Both the position numbers and the translations under genes were made by a program. From the NCBI GenBank assembly GCA_021805985.1, contig JAJZDN010000045.1, positions 1 to 34,078 of the forward strand: a DNA stretch of 34,078 bases, written 5' to 3'. Origin of the DNA: Planctomycetota bacterium. GTDB lineage: Bacteria > Planctomycetota > Phycisphaerae > WQYP01. Below, one piece after another: positions 5,907 through 28,444 of this stretch (positions are counted from its first letter, which is position 1; each line of letters opens with the position of its first letter). Below the pieces are notes generated by a model that was not told the DNA's origin, searched no databases, and saw only the letters and a list, made by a program, of their open reading frames with translations.

Positions 5907-8525
5907 ATGGTGCGTGAAATCAAGATTGTTTTAATGGTGGGCATTCTGGCACTCTTTCCCTGGGCGATGTTGGCACCCCTGCGCGCGGCTGCCGCTCCGG
6001 TGTTTCGTCCGCCTGCAGTACCGCTGGTTACATTTGATCCCTATATGAGCATCTGGTCGGAAGCCAATAACCTTACCGATGATACCACACGCTATTGGGA
6101 CGGTAATGCGCAGAGTCTGGTGAGCCTGATCCAGATTGACGGCACAACGTACCGGCTGATGGGTAACGATCCGAGAACCGTGCCGGCTTTGCCGCAGCTA
6201 AGCGTTAAGGTATTGCCGGTGCAAACCATTTATACGTTCGGTAATTCTCAGATCAATGTCGTGTTGACCTTTACCACGCCGCGCTTGCCTTCGAACCTGA
6301 AAGCCATGACCCTGCCAGTGACATACATATCCTGGACGGTGCAATCAGCGGATGGGAAGTCACACAATGTTCAAATTTATTACAGCACCAGTGCTGCCGT
6401 TGCGGTTAATACGACGGATCAGCAGGTGCAATGGAGCCGGCAGGCCTTTGGTTCTTTGACGGCATTGCAATGCGGCACGCCCACGCAGAATTATTTTGAT
6501 GTTTCGGGTGATCCAGTCGGAATTGACTGGGGTTATATATATACTGCCGCACCGGCCACCCTGAGCACCGCCACCGTGGACTCGGACAGCAATTGCATCA
6601 ACAGCTTCATGTCCGGGGGGAGTGTTTCTTCAACCGTTTCCAGTGCCATGCCCGTAGCGGTCAATGTGGGCAATCCGGTGGAGGCGGTGAGTTTTAATCT
6701 CGGGGCGGTGGGGCAGGCCACAGTAAGCCGTCATGTGCTGGTGGCGTATGATGAAGTTTATGCCATCAATTATTTTAATGTAAATGAACCCCCTTATTGG
6801 CGGCAGGAATTCACGGATGCTTCCAGCATGTTGCAGTGGGCGGATGCCAATTATGCGTCGCTGGTCACGCAATGCCAGACGTTTGATTCCGCCGTTCTGG
6901 CGGACGCCAATAAAATCGGCGGTTATCAATATGCCACGCTGGTGTCCCTGGCGTACCGACAATCTTTGGCGGCCATGGGAATTGCCGCGGATCGTAACGG
7001 CCTGCCGATGGTCTACACCAAGGAGGAAACCAGCAATGGTGATATTGCGACGGTGGATGTCATTGCTCCGGCATCGCCGTTGCTGCTGACGTTTTGTCCG
7101 CAATTGGAAGCGGCATCCCTCGTGCCGGTGCTGAATTCCGCCAACACGCCGCTCTGGACATTTCCCTGGGCTCCCCATGATCTGGGCACCTATCCCATAT
7201 GTGTCGGTCATTACAATACCGGCGGGGAAAATATGCCCATCGAAGAGAGCGGCAACATGATTATCATGGCGGCCGCCATTGCCAAGGCGGAAGGCAATGC
7301 TGATTTCGCCGCCAAGTATTGGAATTTGTTCAGCAGTTGGGCGCTGTATTTAAAACAATCCGGTTATGATCCGGGTTTGCAGTTAAGCACCAATGATTTC
7401 CTGGGCTTCATGGCGCACAATGCCAATTTATCCGTCAAAGCGATTGTCGCCATGGGGGCGTATGCCATGCTCTGCCGCATGCGCAGCCAGGAGGAATTGT
7501 CCGGCGGCAACCAGGCCGCCGCAACGGCCTTGCTGACGGAGGCCAATGAATATCAGGCCACAGCCAAGGAATGGGTGAAAAGTTGGATGGCGGTGGATAA
7601 TGACGGCACGCATTACCGCATGGCCTTTGATAAGCCGGGTACTTGGAGCATGTTGTATAACCTGCAGTGGGATCAAACTTTGGGGCTGGGGCTGTTTCCA
7701 ATTTCCGTGCGCAAGGAAGAATCCGCATTTTACGCCACGCAGCTAAATCAATGGGGCCTGCCGGATCGCAGTTCGGTAACACAGACCAAGACTGATTTTG
7801 AAATCTGGACTGCCACCATGTGTTCCACCCCGGTATTTAATGCCATCATCGATGACATTTATAATTTCATGGATCAGTCTTCCGGGCGCGTGCCAATGAC
7901 CGATCAATATGACACCATCGCGGGTTGGAGTGGTATGCACGCCAGACCGGTGGTCGGTGCCACGTTCATGCCCATGCTCAACAATATGGCCATCTGGAAG
8001 AAATGGGCTTCGCAGGGGGCAATGTTTTCCGATAACTGGGCACCCCTGCCGCCGGCCCCGGTGGTGAATCAAGTTGTGCCCACCGCACAGGACAGCACAA
8101 CGCCGATTATCTGGAGCTACACCACGACTCAGCCGGCCGCTAACTGGTTTGCCACCGCCTTTGACGACAGCAGTTGGGGCACCGGACCGGCCGGCTTTGG
8201 CACCGTGGATCCTAACGTGACGCCCAACACCAGTTGGACCACATCGGATATCTGGCTGCGCCGGACCTTCACCATGCCCACGGGAAATTATCCCAACCTG
8301 GAGGTCTACTGTTATCACGATGAAGATATTGAAGTATATATTAATGGCGTACTGGCGGCCTCAGCCCCGGGATATTCGACCAACTATGTGGCACTGCCCA
8401 TCACGCCTGCGGGACTGGCCGCGCTGCACGCGGGACAAAATGTTATGGCCGTGCATGTGCATCAGACCGTGGGAGGGCAGTTTGTGGATGTTGGTTTAGC
8501 GCAATGGTACGTACCAACCAATTAA
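5907..8525 (+). CDS. Glutaminase A-like (DUF4964/DUF5127/DUF4965/DUF1793) secreted protein A
   Basis: An 872-residue exported protein; start ATG 5907 with GGAAG just upstream, signal peptide to about residue 30. APVFRPPAVPLVTFDPYMSIW opens a DUF4964-like segment. DUF5127-like beta-sandwich covers about 95-330 and a DUF4965/DUF1793 helical barrel about 340-700 (signatures ETSNGDIATVDV, PVEESGN-type IEESGNM, LSTNDFLGFMAHNANLS). Residues about 745-872 form a galactose-binding-like jelly roll ending in GLAQWY. Fungal relatives are called glutaminase A, but bacterial activity is not established; a glycoside hydrolase role is a real alternative given the neighbours. It is about 60% or more similar by eye to the protein at 10391-12967. 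A small CCGGAT/ATCCGG hairpin (5867-5887) sits in the gap before it. Asn/Ser/Thr rich, unlike its basic paralogue. Confidence 0.85.
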   Translation: MVREIKIVLMVGILALFPWAMLAPLRAAAAPVFRPPAVPLVTFDPYMSIWSEANNLTDDTTRYWDGNAQSLVSLIQIDGTTYRLMGNDPRTVPALPQLSVKVLPVQTIYTFGNSQINVVLTFTTPRLPSNLKAMTLPVTYISWTVQSADGKSHNVQIYYSTSAAVAVNTTDQQVQWSRQAFGSLTALQCGTPTQNYFDVSGDPVGIDWGYIYTAAPATLSTATVDSDSNCINSFMSGGSVSSTVSSAMPVAVNVGNPVEAVSFNLGAVGQATVSRHVLVAYDEVYAINYFNVNEPPYWRQEFTDASSMLQWADANYASLVTQCQTFDSAVLADANKIGGYQYATLVSLAYRQSLAAMGIAADRNGLPMVYTKEETSNGDIATVDVIAPASPLLLTFCPQLEAASLVPVLNSANTPLWTFPWAPHDLGTYPICVGHYNTGGENMPIEESGNMIIMAAAIAKAEGNADFAAKYWNLFSSWALYLKQSGYDPGLQLSTNDFLGFMAHNANLSVKAIVAMGAYAMLCRMRSQEELSGGNQAAATALLTEANEYQATAKEWVKSWMAVDNDGTHYRMAFDKPGTWSMLYNLQWDQTLGLGLFPISVRKEESAFYATQLNQWGLPDRSSVTQTKTDFEIWTATMCSTPVFNAIIDDIYNFMDQSSGRVPMTDQYDTIAGWSGMHARPVVGATFMPMLNNMAIWKKWASQGAMFSDNWAPLPPAPVVNQVVPTAQDSTTPIIWSYTTTQPAANWFATAFDDSSWGTGPAGFGTVDPNVTPNTSWTTSDIWLRRTFTMPTGNYPNLEVYCYHDEDIEVYINGVLAASAPGYSTNYVALPITPAGLAALHAGQNVMAVHVHQTVGGQFVDVGLAQWYVPTN

Positions 8526-10279: not shown

Positions 10280-10390
10280 TAGGATGATGAGTTCTGGTAT
10301 CGGCAGTCTTTGCCAGGTTGACGGTTGCTTTAGAAAACCAGTAAATGCTGGGTGCTTTGGCAAGGTTGTTTTCTCTTTTGGAGTCGTTCA

Positions 10391-12967
10391 ATGCGTGTAT
10401 GGACAAAAAGTGTCTTTCTTTCATCAATTGCAGCGCTTCTCATGCTGGGGCAATTTGGCGGTACCTCAGGGGTCTCTGCCGCGCCGGCATTTCGGCCGCC
10501 GGCGGTGCCGCTGGTAACCTTTGATCCGTACATGAGTATCTGGTCGGAGAATAATCATCTGGCGGATCATCGCACCCGCTACTGGGATGGTCGCATCCAG
10601 AGTCTGGTAAGTCTGGTGCGTGTTGATGGCACAACCTATCGGCTTATGGGCAATCAGCCCAGTACCGCACCGGCCATGCATCAGGTCAGCGTGACCGTGC
10701 GGCCGACAACGACGATTTATCAGTTCTCCAACCGTAACATTGACCTCACGCTGACTTTCATGACGCCGCGTTTGCCGGCGAGCCTCAAGACCATGACCCT
10801 GCCGGTAACCTACATAACCTGGAGCGTAAAATCCGCGGATGGCCAAAGCCATCAGGTGCAGGTGTATGACAGTACCAGTTCAGCCATCGCAGTTAATCAT
10901 GACCAGCAGAAAGTTACTTGGAGCCGCAAAACCTTCGGACCTTTGACGGCATTGAAAATAGGTTCAACCACGCAGAGTTATTTTGATATTTCCGGCGATC
11001 CCGTGGGCTTGGACTGGGGTTATATTTACACCGCCGCCTCCAGCAAAAAAAGCACCTCGTGCCTGGCCTCCAATGGCCGATGCATCAATGATTTTGTGCT
11101 ACACGGGCGGTTGCCCCAAACCGATTCCACCAACATGCCCCGGGCGGTAAGTGCCGGCGAGCCGGTGGAAGCGTTTGCGTTTAACTTGGGCAAAGTCACC
11201 GATACCGCGGTCACCCGGCATGTGATGGTGGCTTATGATGAAGTCTATGCCATTGATTACTTTGGACAATATCAGAGACCCTATTGGCGGCACATTTTTA
11301 AGACACCCTCCAGGATGTTCCAATGGGCAGCCGGCCACTATAAATCTCTGATGAAGAAAAGCGTCGCCTTTGATTCCTCGGTGATTACCGATGCTAAGCG
11401 CATCGGCCGCTATCAATATGCCACCATTGTTTCCATGGCATATCGCCAGGCGCTGGCGGCCATGGGCATGTCCGCTGATGCCCATGGTATGCCTATGGTC
11501 TATACCAAGGAAGAGACCAGCAACGGGGATATTGCGACCGTGGATGTATTTTTCCCGGCCTCTCCACTGCTGTTAACGTTCTGCCCGCAGTTGGAAGCTG
11601 CCTCGATGGTACCGGTACTGAATTCCGCCAATACGCCGCGCTGGAAGTTCGCCTGGTCCCCGCATGATTTAGGCACATATCCAATATGCACGGGCCATTA
11701 CAATTCCGGTGGAGAGAACATGATGGTGGAAGAAAGCGGCAACATGATTATCCTTGCCGCGGCCATTGCCAAGGCAGAAGGGAATGCTGACTTTGCCACC
11801 AAGTATTGGCCACTCCTGACCAAGTGGGTCAGATACTTGAGAAAGAGCGGCTTTGATCCGGGAAAGCAGTTAAGCACCAATGACTTCCTGGGCTTCATGG
11901 CCCACAACGCCAATTTATCGGTGAAAGCCATTGTCGCCATGGGCGCTTATGGCATGTTATGCCGCATGCGCGGTATGACCGCCCAGGCCAATGACTATCA
12001 GTCGCTGGCCCGGCGCTGGGCGCACAAATGGATGAAAGTGGATAACGATGGCAACCATTACCGCATGGCGTTTAATCAGCCGGGAACGTGGAGCATGGTT
12101 TACAACATGGTCTGGGATCAGGCCTTGGGATTGCATATATTTCCTATGTCGGTACGGCGGAAGGAAATGGCCTTCTATATGACCAAGCTCAATAAATATG
12201 GCTTGCCAGATCGCAGCACGGTAACGCAGACTAAAACGGATTTTGAAATCTGGACAGCGACACTGGCCACGGAGCATTCGCAGTTCCAGAGCATCATCAA
12301 TCGCATCTATAAATTCCTGAATCAAAGTCCAAAGCGGGTGCCCTTTGCTGATCAGTATGGCACGCGCAAAGCTTGGGCTGGCATGCACGCGCGTCCGGTG
12401 ATGGGGGCAGCCTTTATGCCCATCATGAATCAAACACAGATATGGCTGAAATGGGCGGGCCGCGGGGCCAAATTCCCGGACAACTGGGCACCCTTGCCAC
12501 CACCGCCGGTCATCAAACAAATTGTGCCCACCGCCCGGAACATGCCAATTATGTGGCATTACACCATCCACAAGCCGTCCGCCGGCTGGAATAAACCGGG
12601 ATTCGATGACAACAACTGGCAAAGAGGCCCCGCGGGCTTTGGAACACTGGATCCGGGTGTCTCGCCGCGGACACGCTGGACCACGGATAATATCTGGCTG
12701 CGGCACCACTTTATCATGCCAGCAGGCCACTATCCTCATTTGGTGGTGTATTGTTATCACGATGAAGATGTGCAAATTTACATCAACGGTGTATTAGCCG
12801 CATCCGCACCGGGATTCAGCACCACTTATGTGCCGTTGCGCTTAACGGCCGCTGGCAAAAAGTCGCTGCATCCGGGCCGCAATCTTATGGCGGTGCATGT
12901 CCTGCAAACCACCGGCGGCCAGTTCTTTGATGCCGGCCTGGCCCAGTGGTATATTCCAAAGAATTAA
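10391..12967 (+). CDS. Glutaminase A-like (DUF4964/DUF5127/DUF4965/DUF1793) secreted protein B
   Basis: An 858-residue paralogue of the protein at 5907-8525, similar over its whole length including the C-terminal jelly roll (about 732-858, ending GLAQWYIPKN). I chose ATG 10391 because GGAG lies 8 bases upstream and it gives a clean signal peptide (MRVWTKSVFLSS...VSAAPAF); a longer in-frame start at 10352 would add 13 residues and spoil it. Helical-barrel signatures ETSNGDIATVDV, VEESGNMIIL and LSTNDFLGFMAHNANLS are kept. Surface positions are strongly shifted to Lys, Arg and His compared with copy A, for example KLNKYGL against QLNQWGL and INRIYKF against IDDIYNF. The stop is 11 bases from the GxGYxYP gene, so the two are almost certainly co-transcribed. 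Substrate unknown. Confidence 0.85.
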   Translation: MRVWTKSVFLSSIAALLMLGQFGGTSGVSAAPAFRPPAVPLVTFDPYMSIWSENNHLADHRTRYWDGRIQSLVSLVRVDGTTYRLMGNQPSTAPAMHQVSVTVRPTTTIYQFSNRNIDLTLTFMTPRLPASLKTMTLPVTYITWSVKSADGQSHQVQVYDSTSSAIAVNHDQQKVTWSRKTFGPLTALKIGSTTQSYFDISGDPVGLDWGYIYTAASSKKSTSCLASNGRCINDFVLHGRLPQTDSTNMPRAVSAGEPVEAFAFNLGKVTDTAVTRHVMVAYDEVYAIDYFGQYQRPYWRHIFKTPSRMFQWAAGHYKSLMKKSVAFDSSVITDAKRIGRYQYATIVSMAYRQALAAMGMSADAHGMPMVYTKEETSNGDIATVDVFFPASPLLLTFCPQLEAASMVPVLNSANTPRWKFAWSPHDLGTYPICTGHYNSGGENMMVEESGNMIILAAAIAKAEGNADFATKYWPLLTKWVRYLRKSGFDPGKQLSTNDFLGFMAHNANLSVKAIVAMGAYGMLCRMRGMTAQANDYQSLARRWAHKWMKVDNDGNHYRMAFNQPGTWSMVYNMVWDQALGLHIFPMSVRRKEMAFYMTKLNKYGLPDRSTVTQTKTDFEIWTATLATEHSQFQSIINRIYKFLNQSPKRVPFADQYGTRKAWAGMHARPVMGAAFMPIMNQTQIWLKWAGRGAKFPDNWAPLPPPPVIKQIVPTARNMPIMWHYTIHKPSAGWNKPGFDDNNWQRGPAGFGTLDPGVSPRTRWTTDNIWLRHHFIMPAGHYPHLVVYCYHDEDVQIYINGVLAASAPGFSTTYVPLRLTAAGKKSLHPGRNLMAVHVLQTTGGQFFDAGLAQWYIPKN

Positions 12968-17495: not shown

Positions 17496-17528
17496 TACGC
17501 CGATAAACGCAGATGGAGGTCGCACGCG

Positions 17529-17549
17529 ATGATCTCCACGCGGTCATAG
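17529..17549 (+). CDS. Possible six-codon leader ORF before GH116
   Basis: ATG 17529 opens MISTRS and stops at TAG 17547-17549. It has the best Shine-Dalgarno of the region, GGAGG at 17515-17519 with nine bases of spacing, better than that of GH116 itself. The stop is 17 bases before the GH116 ATG. It might be translated for coupling or regulation of GH116, or be chance. Confidence 0.25.
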   Translation: MISTRS

Positions 17550-17566
17550 AAAGGCGCACCAGTAAG

Positions 17567-20500
17567 ATGACAGATTTCAACGCTAGCCCTAAACCCAACG
17601 AAGTTTCACGCCGCAATTTTCTTAAAGTGCTCGGGGCGGCCTCGACCGCTATGGTTATCGCGCCGCCGCTTTCCGCTACCGCCAAAGCCTACGCGGAAGA
17701 AATTGGCGTCCCATTGCGCGGGCCAGATGGCAAGATTATCGTTTTTCATCCACCCATGGCGTCCGGCATTCCCTTGGGGGGCATGGGGGCGGGCACATTC
17801 GAGATTCGCGCGGATGGTGGCATGTACGAATGGCAGATTTTTAATAACTGGGCACAGCGGCTGGTTTTGCCGGATACATTTTTTGCAATTCGGGCCCAGG
17901 AACAGGGGAAAGCTGCCGTAGTGCGCCGACTTGAAACAATTCGGCAGTCCTCTAATCCGGGCCAACCCGTTAAGAATATCACGTATGAGGGCCGTGCGCC
18001 CATCGCGCGACTGCGTTATGAGGAACCTGCCCTTCCGGTCGCGGTATCACTGACGGCATGGTCTCCGTTTATTCCACACCAACCACGCGATTCGGGGCTG
18101 CCCGGCGCTATATTTACTTTCGAGCTTACCAATCATGGGCACACTCCGGTGCATACGACACTGCTTAGCAGTATCCGCAATGGCGTCGCACTCAACAATG
18201 GCTGGATTGGCACGCAAAATCGCCTGGAGCGGGGGCCGGAGATGACCGCCATTCACATGGCTGGCCGTATCGACGGACGGCCATCGGTGATGAGTAAACA
18301 GGTTCGAGTATTGGTATTGTTGGAGTCTTTGCCGTCTCGCGTGAGCGAAGTGCTCTCCAGTGCAAAAAACTTAACCATGGATACCAGCGTGGCTGTCAAG
18401 AATGGTAAAATCACGCTGCCGTATTCCACTGCCGATGAACTGGTCAAGCATTATGATGTTATCTGGATTGGTGAAATCCCCCACACCCGCACCACTCTCG
18501 GCCATGAAAATATGGCCATGATTCGTGACGCAGTGCATAAAGGCGTGGGCTTGCTGGTAACCGGCGGGTGGGACGCCTTCTACGGTGATAGCAGCACACG
18601 CTGGGGGCATCTCAACGGCACGCCCATTGAACAGGCACTGCCTGTCAAATTTTGTGACTCGGTGGATGCTGTCAACCAATCAACATCCATAGTCGTCGCC
18701 GAAAAGGCTGATTTTGTTTTAGGTGACCCGCAACTCGAAACCATCGGTGGTTATAATCGCCTGGCAGCGGTCAAACCCGATGGGAAAGTACTGCTGAAGA
18801 CCGATACTGGCGCACCTCTGTTGATTACGGGAAATTATGGCGCAGGCCGTACTGCGGTCCTGGCCACTTCGGTCAGTGGAGGTTGGCCTCCGGCGCGGTG
18901 GACGCAAATGCCATTCTTTTACGGCGGATTGTTGGCCCACATCGCCCACGCCACCTTCACACCGGGATACGGTGTGGATTCCTTTGACTCCTCCAGCGGC
19001 GATATGACCCTGGCCGCCCTTTCCGGTGATGCACACGCCGCCGTGCAGTGGCGCGATGTAGACAAGTTCTGGTCTAATTTTGAAAATCATGGCACCTTGT
19101 TGGAGCAGGAGGTGGGCCCCGAAAATGCGCGCAACACTGCCTTAGCCTTCGCCATCGACTTGAAACCCGGTGAAACAAAAAAAGCGACATTTATTCTGGC
19201 GTGGTATTTCCCCAACCAATATGACTATTCCAGCAACGCCAATTTTCTCGGGCACATCTACAACCGCTGGTTTCGCAACTCCCTGGAGGTGGTCCGGGAA
19301 GTGGCTCACCGCCATGAAGACCTATTTAACCGAACCCTGACCTTTCAAAACGCGCTGTATAACAGCAGTATGCCGCCCAAGGTCAAGGATGCGATCAACG
19401 CCCAGCTTACCACGCTAAGCAAGGAAACTTGGTGGGTAAAAGATGGCACGTATGCGGTCTGGGAAGGTATGGGCTGTTGTGGCTTGCAGACGATGGATGT
19501 GGCGTTTTATGCTTCCCACCCCATTTCACTTCTTTTTCCCCATCAGCAAAAGTCTTCCATGCGGCTTACCGCCCGCCATCAAAAACCCGATGGTGAGATA
19601 CCGCACTTTTTCCCCGGTACATTTGAGCACCCGGATGCCTGGTTCAAAATTGACCTTATGCCCGCATTTGCCCTGATGGTCTATCGCGATTATCTCTGGT
19701 CGGGTGACCATGGATACCTGCGTGAAATGTGGCCCGTAATTACCAAGGCCATGGCCTATGACCAACGCACTGATAAAGATAAAGATTTTCTTCCCGACGA
19801 TCATGGCTTGGACAGTACATTCGACGGCTGGCCCATGAGCGGAACAACTTCTTATGTTTCAAGCATCTGGTTAGCCGGGCTGGCGGCGGGCATTCGCATG
19901 GCGCGGATATTGGGCGACACCACAACCGAAGCCAACTACACTCTCTGGCTGGAAAAAGGCCAAAAGAGCTTTGAACGTGAATTGTGGAATGGCCACTATT
20001 ATCAGATGGCCCGCGATATGCAGACCGGCACCGAGAATACCGGAATTTTATTAGCGGGAACGGTCGGACAGTGGTTTGCAGATACCTGCGACTTGGGCGA
20101 TATTCTGCCGCGTGACCATGTTAAACTCCACAATGAAGCAGCTTTTCACTATTGCCGCCAAAAGACCCGCCCGGGCATGCCGTATGTCGACCCTGATGAC
20201 GGAATCGCCTACATCAACGGATTCTGGCCCCACGGCGGAACGCCGGGAGGTGAAGGGCAGTGGAGCGGGCCATGGACCGGAATTGAATATATGTTTTCCT
20301 CATCCTTGGCTTTTCTGGGGCGGACGGATCTTGCAGTTACTGTAACAACTGACGTTTATGATCGGTATGTGCATCAGCGGGCTCCGTGGGATCATGTGGA
20401 ATGTGGCGAACACTATTTCCGCCCGTTAAGCGTCTGGACCGTACTGCTGGCCCTGCAGGGCTTCCGTTGGGATGCCGTGCGGCGGTCGTTGGGATTTACG

Positions 20501-20824
20501 CCGCGGATTTCCGAAAAAGATCATCGGTCGCTGTTTTGCACCGCCGCCGGGTGGGGTGAGTATTTTGCCATGAATTCTGGAACACGGCGCGTCCATCGAA
20601 TCGTGCATCAGGCCGGGAAATTGGCGCTATCTGAATTTACAATTGGCCTCACACCGGTGGAGGGCACTGATCCAACGAAAGGTCTGCGGTGTATCTGTGG
20701 CGGCGTCGCGGTTCAAGCTGCTGGGAAAGTGGTTGATGGTCGCATGGTTATCGGCTTTCAAAGCCCCCTGCGTCTAAAACCGGGGGCAACGCTGGAAATT
20801 TCCTGGGATCGCGCGGATTCATAA
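17567..20824 (+). CDS. GH116 beta-glycosidase with inserted GATase1-like domain, Tat-exported
   Basis: A 1085-residue protein of the GH116 (GBA2-like glucosylceramidase/beta-glucosidase) family. Start ATG 17567 gives a twin-arginine signal SRRNFLK (R15-R16). The N-terminal domain begins GIPLGGMGAGTFEIR near residues 65-80. Residues about 244-468 do not belong to GH116: they match the layout of a class I glutamine-amidotransferase-like (DUF1355-type) domain, with RVLVLLESLP, YDVIWIGEI (about 296), GLLVTGGWDAFYG (about 328), RWGHLNGTPIEQALPV and GNYGAGRTAVLATS, and no nucleophile Cys at the elbow. The GH116 beta-sandwich then resumes and the (alpha/alpha)6 barrel covers about 600-1060. By family comparison, E633 (VWEG) is the nucleophile and D753 (TFDGW) the acid/base. 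It likely releases beta-linked glucose or xylose. It has its own promoter. Confidence 0.9.
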   Translation: MTDFNASPKPNEVSRRNFLKVLGAASTAMVIAPPLSATAKAYAEEIGVPLRGPDGKIIVFHPPMASGIPLGGMGAGTFEIRADGGMYEWQIFNNWAQRLVLPDTFFAIRAQEQGKAAVVRRLETIRQSSNPGQPVKNITYEGRAPIARLRYEEPALPVAVSLTAWSPFIPHQPRDSGLPGAIFTFELTNHGHTPVHTTLLSSIRNGVALNNGWIGTQNRLERGPEMTAIHMAGRIDGRPSVMSKQVRVLVLLESLPSRVSEVLSSAKNLTMDTSVAVKNGKITLPYSTADELVKHYDVIWIGEIPHTRTTLGHENMAMIRDAVHKGVGLLVTGGWDAFYGDSSTRWGHLNGTPIEQALPVKFCDSVDAVNQSTSIVVAEKADFVLGDPQLETIGGYNRLAAVKPDGKVLLKTDTGAPLLITGNYGAGRTAVLATSVSGGWPPARWTQMPFFYGGLLAHIAHATFTPGYGVDSFDSSSGDMTLAALSGDAHAAVQWRDVDKFWSNFENHGTLLEQEVGPENARNTALAFAIDLKPGETKKATFILAWYFPNQYDYSSNANFLGHIYNRWFRNSLEVVREVAHRHEDLFNRTLTFQNALYNSSMPPKVKDAINAQLTTLSKETWWVKDGTYAVWEGMGCCGLQTMDVAFYASHPISLLFPHQQKSSMRLTARHQKPDGEIPHFFPGTFEHPDAWFKIDLMPAFALMVYRDYLWSGDHGYLREMWPVITKAMAYDQRTDKDKDFLPDDHGLDSTFDGWPMSGTTSYVSSIWLAGLAAGIRMARILGDTTTEANYTLWLEKGQKSFERELWNGHYYQMARDMQTGTENTGILLAGTVGQWFADTCDLGDILPRDHVKLHNEAAFHYCRQKTRPGMPYVDPDDGIAYINGFWPHGGTPGGEGQWSGPWTGIEYMFSSSLAFLGRTDLAVTVTTDVYDRYVHQRAPWDHVECGEHYFRPLSVWTVLLALQGFRWDAVRRSLGFTPRISEKDHRSLFCTAAGWGEYFAMNSGTRRVHRIVHQAGKLALSEFTIGLTPVEGTDPTKGLRCICGGVAVQAAGKVVDGRMVIGFQSPLRLKPGATLEISWDRADS

Positions 20825-25640: not shown

Positions 25641-28103
25641 TCACTGCTCCGGAATTCTCAGAATCACAAACGACCGAGCCGGGAAGGTGTACTGCAACTT
25701 TGTGCCTGTAACATTCAGCGGCACCGAATGCGGCACAACATGGTGCGGATCGCTAAGCGAATTCACCGCCGAGCCGCTTGCCGCGGTCAGTGTAATAGCT
25801 GTTCCCTTATTCGCCAAAGCCGGTGCCCCTTGCAGGTGAATCGTTGCAGAAATAGCGCTATGCGTGCCGTTAATGACTTTTACAATCACGGTCTTTTGCG
25901 GCACATTGATTCCGGCAATGGCGCTAAAACGCACACCCGAGTGCATCAGGCTTTCCGATTGAATTTGTTTGCCATTGATGTAACCAGTGTAACGATCCCC
26001 ATGGACTACCAGACGAATCGTATACCATCGCCCTGGAGCCACCTTGAACCCACTGCGCCATCCCAAACCCGAGCGTTGCGTACCGTGGGTGTGTTCAAAG
26101 GCAGTAGCCGTATCACCCCAGCCACCAATATTCCACCAAACATAACGATGCAGCCCCTGCACATTAAACACGATCAAAAATCCTTCCGCTCCACCAAGTT
26201 TTCTCGCTTGAACATTCAACGTGTAATTGGCGGGGAACTGATGATCCTGCAAGACGGTCATCAGATCCGTACCATTGCCGGTCTGCTGATAGACGCCATT
26301 GCGCACGGACCATTGACCTGCAATTGGCTTCCAGCCAACGCTGCCGTTCGTAAAGTTGGATCGGTAAAGTGTTTTCCCGCCGGCGGTAACTGAAATATTC
26401 CGGAATTCCGACTGCGTATTCCAGGCACCCAAACCGATTGCCACCCCGCCCGTTGGCGCTTTGACCCCATTGACCGGCCGCTGCGTTACCTGCATGGGCA
26501 GCATGCGCGTAGGGCGATTATCCGAATACATTTGTTGCACGTAATAAGATACCGTTCCGCACGCCCGCGAGCTATCAAAGCGGATCATATCCGGATGCCA
26601 TTGGCTGCCCTGCACATTAACAAACAGCGGCGCATAAGACGCGATCCGGACGATATCCGAATTGCGTTCCAAGCCCCCCATGAACGCGGCTTCCGCCAAT
26701 GCCGCCCGCAAGTTGCCGGTGCCGCAATTATGCGTTACGGCATATTCGCCCACAAATACTTTCGCTCCGGTTCGACTGCGATGATCATATAAATGACGGT
26801 TCGCCCAGAACCACCTCGGCGAATGGTAGTAATGATCATCCACCATATAAATCGGTGCTTTGCTCAAAGGGGCGCGGCCCGTGTAAATGGTTTTGAGGTG
26901 AGGGAAGTGCGCTAAAAGACCTTCATATATAACCTTGTAGCGGGAGGGGTAATAGTTAGTGAGATTCCACCAATCCTCATTTCCGATTTCAATACGGTTT
27001 AAATGAAAAGGTGCCGGATGGCCGTACTTGGCGCGCAATGCACCCCATTTCGTATCCGCCGGTGCATCGGCAAATTTAATTGAATCAATGGCGCTTTTTA
27101 CCCATGGCTCCATTTGAGCCATGGGTACAACATCAGTGGCTCCCAGCGAAATGCCGCAGTTAAAACCAAACAGTGGTTTGGCGTGCATCTCCTGGCACAT
27201 TTCCAGAAATTCCAAGTAACCCAGTCCATCGGTCACCCAATATCCCCACGGATTCCAATGCCCGGGTCTATCCGCCAGCGGGCCGATTGTCTTCTGCCAG
27301 AGGAACCCCTCTGCCAGAGAATTTCCTTCAATGTAATTACCTCCGGGAAACCGCACAAAGGACGGATGCAGGGCGGCCAGCATGCGGGCCAATTGCGGCC
27401 GCAACGGTAATCCACGCCATGTTTTCGCCGGAAATAAATTGACAATATTCAAATACAGCGAACCGTGTCCGCTGGGCACAAACGCCAGCTTGCCTTCAGG
27501 ATTACTCCCATCGCATTTCAATACGGCATGAAAATTAGTCCATTTACCCGATATGCCGTTGATGACCTTACTTCCCAAAACCGCTCCATTGGCCCCCAAC
27601 AGTTCCGCGGTAACCCTCCCGCCCATGCCCGCGCTTTTCCGCGCGTAAAAGCTTAACTTATAGGATCGCCCTTTTTTAAAGTTCATCCCCCAGTACCCGC
27701 TGTTGACCAGTTTAACGGCTCCAACCGGCGTGGTGTAATACACCGTTACGCGCGCCGCCAGCGGATTTATCTTATTAAGGGCATGATTGGAATCCACCCA
27801 CAAACTCGCCTGTCCCCGGCCCTTCGTTGCCAACGTCCAGCCCGCCGGATGATTTTGACTGTCAATCCATTTAAATGTGCCGTTCTTCACCAACTGCGCA
27901 TACAGTCCGCCCTGACCGGCGTAATTAATTTCTTCAAAAAATATCCCCCATAAATTGGGCGATACATGAATGCCCGGTTTGCCCACGTTGATGGTCATGT
28001 TCGTCGTCGCGGCAAACAACGGCTTTCCCGCCGTAAGCATCATCGCAACCAGCGACAGCATCACGCCCGTCCATCCGATTCGTTTAAGCAGGGAATTACG
28101 CAT
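25641..28103 (-). CDS. GH51 alpha-L-arabinofuranosidase with CBM4/9-like and ConA-like modules
   Basis: An 820-residue secreted arabinofuranosidase of the plant/actinobacterial type of GH51. ATG at 28103 is set by GAGGAG at 28111-28116 and a signal peptide ending near FAA; a longer open frame to 28340 is not needed. IHVSPNLWGIFFEEINYAGQGG opens the catalytic region. A CBM4/9-like module follows (about 60-210). The barrel holds the acid/base E376 in IGNED and the nucleophile E453 in VFVGEYAV. After VSYYVQQM the protein carries an inserted concanavalin-like domain (roughly 560-740), and the GH51 C-terminal beta-sandwich closes it. It should release terminal alpha-L-arabinofuranose from arabinan or arabinoxylan, matching GH127 across the window. 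Confidence 0.92.
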   Translation of the reverse strand: MRNSLLKRIGWTGVMLSLVAMMLTAGKPLFAATTNMTINVGKPGIHVSPNLWGIFFEEINYAGQGGLYAQLVKNGTFKWIDSQNHPAGWTLATKGRGQASLWVDSNHALNKINPLAARVTVYYTTPVGAVKLVNSGYWGMNFKKGRSYKLSFYARKSAGMGGRVTAELLGANGAVLGSKVINGISGKWTNFHAVLKCDGSNPEGKLAFVPSGHGSLYLNIVNLFPAKTWRGLPLRPQLARMLAALHPSFVRFPGGNYIEGNSLAEGFLWQKTIGPLADRPGHWNPWGYWVTDGLGYLEFLEMCQEMHAKPLFGFNCGISLGATDVVPMAQMEPWVKSAIDSIKFADAPADTKWGALRAKYGHPAPFHLNRIEIGNEDWWNLTNYYPSRYKVIYEGLLAHFPHLKTIYTGRAPLSKAPIYMVDDHYYHSPRWFWANRHLYDHRSRTGAKVFVGEYAVTHNCGTGNLRAALAEAAFMGGLERNSDIVRIASYAPLFVNVQGSQWHPDMIRFDSSRACGTVSYYVQQMYSDNRPTRMLPMQVTQRPVNGVKAPTGGVAIGLGAWNTQSEFRNISVTAGGKTLYRSNFTNGSVGWKPIAGQWSVRNGVYQQTGNGTDLMTVLQDHQFPANYTLNVQARKLGGAEGFLIVFNVQGLHRYVWWNIGGWGDTATAFEHTHGTQRSGLGWRSGFKVAPGRWYTIRLVVHGDRYTGYINGKQIQSESLMHSGVRFSAIAGINVPQKTVIVKVINGTHSAISATIHLQGAPALANKGTAITLTAASGSAVNSLSDPHHVVPHSVPLNVTGTKLQYTFPARSFVILRIPEQ

Positions 28104-28444
28104 AATAAAACTCCTCACGCACATGATCCGCATACTGGTTGCCAGGCTAATTTTAATCGATCTTGTTTGGGCCGAAAAATCCAACCGGATTCTTGCAACC
28201 CGAGCCTGAATTGGAAAGTACCATAACCGATATTTTTGAATATGAATATCACCTGTCATCGCCCCCGGCCCACTAATTATCAATTTGTCCTTGTTTCCTT
28301 TACTTTTTGTCTGATACGGGTAAAAGACGTTCCAATCCACTTTGTTCCGCCACGATTACCCGGTAGAATCTTATACATACTGGTTTGTATACGTTTTGCT
28401 TTTGTTGCAGCGTATCGGGCCATTGTGGCTGGAGTTTTCTCGGT
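28104..28444. promoter_or_regulatory. Divergent control region between GH51 and TPR/YggX genes
   Basis: A 341-base gap between start codons on opposite strands. It holds the GH51 ribosome site (28111-28116), AT-rich patches such as the near-palindrome GATAT...ATATC (28229-28250), and the operator candidate listed separately. The 10-mer CATACTGGTT occurs at 28131-28140, inside the GH51 leader, and at 28376-28385, inside the operator candidate. I cannot place -35/-10 boxes with confidence. Confidence 0.5.
28372..28391. promoter_or_regulatory. Operator-like near-palindrome
   Basis: TATACATACTGGTTTGTATA is a 20-base near-perfect inverted repeat: TATACATAC against GTTTGTATA, 8 of 9 positions paired. 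Its size and AT-rich ends fit sites for LacI- or GntR-type sugar regulators, including AraR-like ones. It lies 53 bases before the TPR/YggX gene and 269 bases upstream of GH51, so either gene could be the target. Confidence 0.4.

Follow-up and report, generated by a model that had tools for sequence, protein, structure and literature searches.

One planctomycete contig raises the question of whether an exported glycosidase of family GH116 can carry a whole class I glutamine amidotransferase-like (GATase1_like) domain inside its N-terminal domain, and which role such a domain would have there. Family GH116 counts human GBA2 among its members, together with enzymes that act on beta-glucosides and D-arabinan, and nested domains are common in glycosidases. 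The window, that is, the whole stretch of 34,078 nucleotides analysed here, holds the gene on its forward strand (Table 1). The original prediction was right about the gene and counted from the second ATG (17567, giving 1085 residues), whereas the first ATG lies at 17513. In addition, the twin-arginine (TAT) signal was recognised by its NCBIfam model with 20.6 bits (cut-off 16.7), and the Pfam TAT_signal model scored under its cut-off on the same ORF.

Judged from its sequence, the product is a GH116 glycosidase and a predicted retaining beta-glycosidase with a TxGH116-type active site. The Pfam family Glyco_hydr_116N matched in two stretches with 163 bits (cut-off 30.2), of which the better covers residues 85-251 and profile positions 1-169, and DUF608 matched with 203 bits (cut-off 26.3). 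The best matches among solved structures were TxGH116 (5bvu) and ExoMA2 (8ic6), the latter with the top score overall. Both enzymes share with the window protein the N-terminal beta-sandwich, the (alpha/alpha)6 domain, a nucleophile Glu and an acid/base Asp, and the window protein differs from them by about 225 extra residues in a hairpin of the N-domain. D662 aligns with D452 of TxGH116, and because of its 11-residue spacing to D662, E651 is assigned as the nucleophile; the Gly at this position of the aligned chain 7dkw is explained by its being the E441G mutant. E651 and D771, which are invariant in the alignment of relatives, are the E633 and D753 of the original prediction counted from the first ATG, and the alignment to TxGH116 bears out this catalytic pair.

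Table 1. Positions of the GH116 gene and its parts in the window
Feature	Position	Strand	Basis or remark
GH116-family glycosidase ORF	17513..20824	+	1103 aa from first ATG
Twin-arginine (TAT) signal SRRNFLKVL..., residues 31-57	17603..17683	+	NCBIfam TIGR01409
GH116 N-terminal beta-sandwich, part 1, residues 85-249, last strand MTAIHM	17765..18259	+	Pfam Glyco_hydr_116N; alignment with insert-free GH116
Inserted GATase1_like domain (PF07090), about residues 262-489	18296..18979	+	Pfam, phmmer, hhalign and PDB profile matches
GH116 N-terminal beta-sandwich, part 2, first strand GDMTLAALS	18998..19249	+	Alignment; second Glyco_hydr_116N stretch
GH116 catalytic (alpha/alpha)6 region, DUF608, residues 645-976	19445..20440	+	Pfam
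Predicted catalytic nucleophile E651 (TxGH116 E441)	19463..19465	+	11 residues before D662
Predicted catalytic acid/base D771 (TxGH116 D593)	19823..19825	+	Alignment to TxGH116

A previous study named H446 of ExoMA2 as a key difference from TxGH116 (PMC10509167). The subsite -1 residues H446 and R483 of ExoMA2 are both absent from the window protein. At the H446 position it has an Asp (D662), as in TxGH116, although by score it is closest to ExoMA2; the R483 position falls in PHFF, a weakly aligned stretch with no Arg. Because of this Asp, an exo-beta-D-arabinofuranosidase of the ExoMA2 type (GH116 subfamily 4) was set aside, and a beta-glucosidase- or xylosidase-like specificity appears more likely than a beta-D-arabinofuranosidase.

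The insert itself was identified by several comparisons. PF07090 (GATase1_like, which we take to be the former DUF1355) matched the whole protein with 50.1 bits (E 3.5e-13) and the insert alone with 53.8 bits (cut-off 27). The Pfam match proper covers 18503-18910 (residues 331-466), and the N-terminal third of the insert is too divergent to be matched. Meanwhile, the body of the domain extends from about 18302 (VRVLVL) to about 18979, nearly matching the predicted bounds of 18296-18970. Its motifs include YDVIWIGEIP at 18452, GLLVTGGWDAFYG at 18548, TPIEQALPV at 18620 and GNYGAGRTAV... at 18830. In a phmmer search against solved structures, the insert alone found 2gk3 (1.3e-9), 3soz (1.1e-8) and 3rht (2.5e-6), and a profile of eight aligned inserts found 2gk3 (7.2e-14) and 3soz (1.4e-13). 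Furthermore, hhalign of the eight inserts against eight free-standing planctomycete members gave a probability of 99.3% (E 2.9e-20). Thus, the GATase1_like insertion is confirmed far beyond chance. The predicted homology to DUF1355/GATase1-like proteins holds, as does the predicted layout, with GH116 sequence flanking the insert within the GH116 N-domain. The insert is homologous to 3rht, 2gk3 and 3soz over much of the family profile, and this homology implies a flavodoxin-like core. However, it differs from other PF07090 members in being embedded in a glycosidase, because the others are free-standing or fused to vWA or HEAT regions.

Structure prediction was of little help here. AlphaFold gave poor models both for the isolated insert, run without an alignment (pLDDT 43), and for the whole protein with a shallow alignment of eight close homologues (pLDDT 38, pTM 0.30), and both were too poor for placing the insert relative to the active site. 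Foldseek returned no match at E 0.001 for the poor insert-only model; for the poor whole-protein model, GH116 structures came top with TM of about 0.16-0.27.

The alignment with insert-free paralogues showed that the insert of about 225 residues fills a single hairpin of the GH116 N-domain. MTAIHM (ending at residue 249, window position 18257) and GDMTLAALS (from residue 496, 18998) are adjacent strands, and in insert-free GH116 paralogues a short turn links them ('LQGLYMYSDGLEKTASQWGSLALAT' in G007, for instance). In addition, a paralogue of the same genome (C41, L008) and another GH116 of the same bacterial family (L028) carry at the same hairpin a module unrelated to the insert of the window. 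This module spans about residues 250-500 with the pattern FESG.Y..W...G.AFG, and matched no Pfam family and no PDB chain; its appearance in sequence suggests a jelly roll. In a third GH116 group (C193, which is L007; L024; L071), the additional residues lie in a later loop. Judged from the alignment, the N-domain hairpin appears to have received insertions repeatedly.

The full architecture was also found in seven other contigs of metagenome-assembled genomes from Planctomycetota/Phycisphaerae (L060-L066), in further genomes, and in a paralogue of the same genome that is 73% identical. An assembly artefact or chimaera is ruled out by the same architecture in many independent genomes and by this paralogue. 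Insert-bearing GH116s occurred in 12 of the 28 genomes of the window's family (and order) within Phycisphaerae, belonging to 3 of 11 genera; two further matches in this search were other, non-GH116 ORFs of genomes already counted. Sampling 392 genomes of the phylum and 397 genomes of the class revealed none outside that family. The other GATase1_like matches in these samples had 30-44% identity and were mostly free-standing ORFs of 250-400 aa. Among the larger GATase1_like ORFs checked in phylum and class, none had a GH116 catalytic match, and the partners were vWA, HEAT and unassigned regions. For instance, one ORF of 2877 aa from the same class (L079) is a vWA/TPR giant with a GATase1_like stretch just below the Pfam cut-off, and GH116 is thus not the only fusion partner of this domain. 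No relatives were found in viral contigs. In plasmids, there was no sign of the fusion, because no GH116 match covered more than 65% of the query, and the matches to the GATase-like part were separate from these. Phyla other than Planctomycetota were covered through plasmid records only, and thus the fusion may exist elsewhere.

Phylogenetic analysis of the catalytic domains grouped all 13 insert-bearing sequences in a single clade (support 98/99, recovered in 99% of bootstraps); the rows adjoining it carried a long-branch warning. It had been asked whether the insert defines a clade, and in this tree it does. The nearest insert-free sequences by identity were G304 (41%) and G058/G120 (35-37%). 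In pairs with the window copy, dN/dS was 0.07-0.16 for the insert and 0.03-0.09 for the catalytic domain, the distant pairs being near synonymous saturation, and the identities in the same pairs were 70-83% and 85-95%, respectively. The insert is retained under purifying selection, and the pattern fits a single origin followed by duplication, which yielded the window and C134 paralogues. In the C134 paralogue (L005), the GATase-like insert itself contains about 35 additional residues (433-468), which are also present in G024 (L022). Elsewhere in the same genome (C2:2785-2964, L011), a frame of 72 aa is 50% identical to GH116 residues 15-74 and adjoins a long glycosidase-looking ORF; it is perhaps a fragment of another GH116 copy.

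In the window, the GH116 gene ends a run of carbohydrate-active genes (GH127, two of GtaA type, GxGYxYP and GH92), and a GH51 gene lies nearby on the opposite strand. The order GH92-GH116-epimerase is conserved in L060 and L061, and GH116-epimerase-...-GH51 occurs also in L067. However, within the DNA examined, most of the more distant GH116 orthologues have other neighbours, so the GH116 gene is independent of this cluster. The two GtaA-type proteins (DUF4964/DUF5127/six-hairpin, about 870 aa) are encoded at 5907-8525 and 10352-12967 on the forward strand, and between them lies a GLEYA/LamG protein that matches PEP-CTERM weakly. Meanwhile, the GH51-type alpha-L-arabinofuranosidase (25641-28340, reverse strand) contains a second nested domain in the window: its C-terminal domain match covers residues 531-890 with a profile only 165 long, and is broken at about 668-800 by a LamG/3-keto-disaccharide-hydrolase-like stretch.

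Eight aligned free-standing planctomycete members share the invariant residues S67 D68, D125-D126-R127, H142, D214 and P217-H218-W219. In the hhalign comparison, the insert replaces SD, DDR, H, D and PHW by GE, SVD/VDA, F, S and SGGW; the lost set comprises invariants of free-standing members and is no formal criterion of the PF07090 family. On the other hand, the insert keeps the structural motifs GGW..F.G, TP....LPV, G.NR, PLL..G and GRTA. GEIPH is invariant across the eight aligned inserts, whereas free-standing members have SDYP. The original prediction of no Cys at the nucleophile elbow agrees with the alignments: the sole Cys of the insert, C381, lies away from the elbow and is R or P in relatives. 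The absence of this Cys seems to belong to PF07090 generally, the putative elbow position being the G in GGWESF. Since the polar invariants are replaced and the single Cys is unconserved, catalysis by the insert is unlikely, and the insert is probably not an enzyme. The loss of these residues is compatible with the original suggestion of a binding or structural module. To our knowledge, no function has been assigned to PF07090, or to its conserved polar residues in free-standing members, despite the solved structures.

What could such a domain do in a glycosidase? Our tentative proposal, which we put at somewhat less than an even chance, is a non-enzymatic structural module. A complete GATase1_like domain would have opened up one hairpin of the N-terminal beta-sandwich of an exported GH116, and would now mediate oligomer contacts and/or shape the approach to the active-site cleft. 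The discontinuous protein would be folded before it is exported through the TAT route. Domain B of GH42 beta-galactosidases (PF08532), which is no amidotransferase and has a trimerising role, may serve as the precedent, and the step from homology to a structural role is inferred from it. In support, the insert keeps its structural motifs, has lost the polar invariants, forms one clade and is under purifying selection. However, its sequence diverges more rapidly than that of the catalytic domain, which is what one would expect of a module under weaker constraint. A GH42 beta-galactosidase modelled as a trimer holds a type 1 GATase-like domain (PMC9323360). What the two cases have in common is fold class and context, both glycosidases containing a domain like the class I GATases. 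GH42 domain B comes after the TIM barrel, whereas the insert of the window is nested in a beta-sandwich hairpin, and PF08532 gave no match to the window protein at E 1 or better in Pfam.

A possible but rather doubtful alternative is a module that binds a ligand or carbohydrate, for targeting or allosteric control: the altered GATase1_like pocket of the insert would hold a polymer or a small molecule and thereby aid catalysis. The invariance of GEIPH, unlike the SD motif of free-standing members, the different and possibly jelly-roll-like module of L008 and L028 at the same hairpin, and the surrounding carbohydrate-degrading genes would all be in keeping with it. However, the insert matched no carbohydrate-binding family in Pfam or NCBIfam, and we know of no GATase1_like member that binds sugars. 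It is unlikely that the insert has been repurposed with a new role, such as a ligand-gated or oligomer-forming lid of the active site, with the hairpin being a general docking point filled by different modules in different lineages. We also regard a neutral passenger as quite improbable, that is, a domain with little functional effect that entered a tolerant loop on one occasion and has persisted since it folds well. The hairpin does tolerate unrelated modules, the insert does change faster than the catalytic domain, and the C134 paralogue has put up with its additional residues inside the insert. Nevertheless, the dN/dS values speak against a passenger, and so does the retention of the insert in every clade copy that covers the region, including both paralogues of this genome. 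A bifunctional protein, in which the insert works as an amidotransferase, an amidase or another hydrolase, is very improbable: the class I glutamine amidotransferase fold class includes enzymes, but the insert has no conserved Cys and no longer carries the D, R and H that never vary among its free-standing homologues. Finally, there is practically no chance that the segment simply extends the GH116 beta-sandwich in the ordinary way and has no GATase-like core, given the highly significant profile matches to PF07090 and three solved GATase1-like structures and the short turn with which insert-free GH116s (G007, G058, G120) close the same hairpin.

We found no report of GH116 together with GATase1, or of PF07090 at all, in the open-access literature searched, and nothing relevant there on insertions in the GH116 N-domain. 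The combination of GH116 with GATase1_like is apparently undescribed, as had been suspected for an exported glycosidase with such an insert. It is genuine, joins two known parts and has been conserved within a single small bacterial family. The insertion, natural and present throughout its clade, identifies the loop at which the GH116 N-domain can accept a whole domain. In addition, a fused and conserved copy of PF07090 in a testable enzyme offers one handle on the function of this family. If the structural proposal is true, the GATase-like fold would be a module in a second glycosidase context besides that of the GH42 type, which would suggest a reusable structural part.
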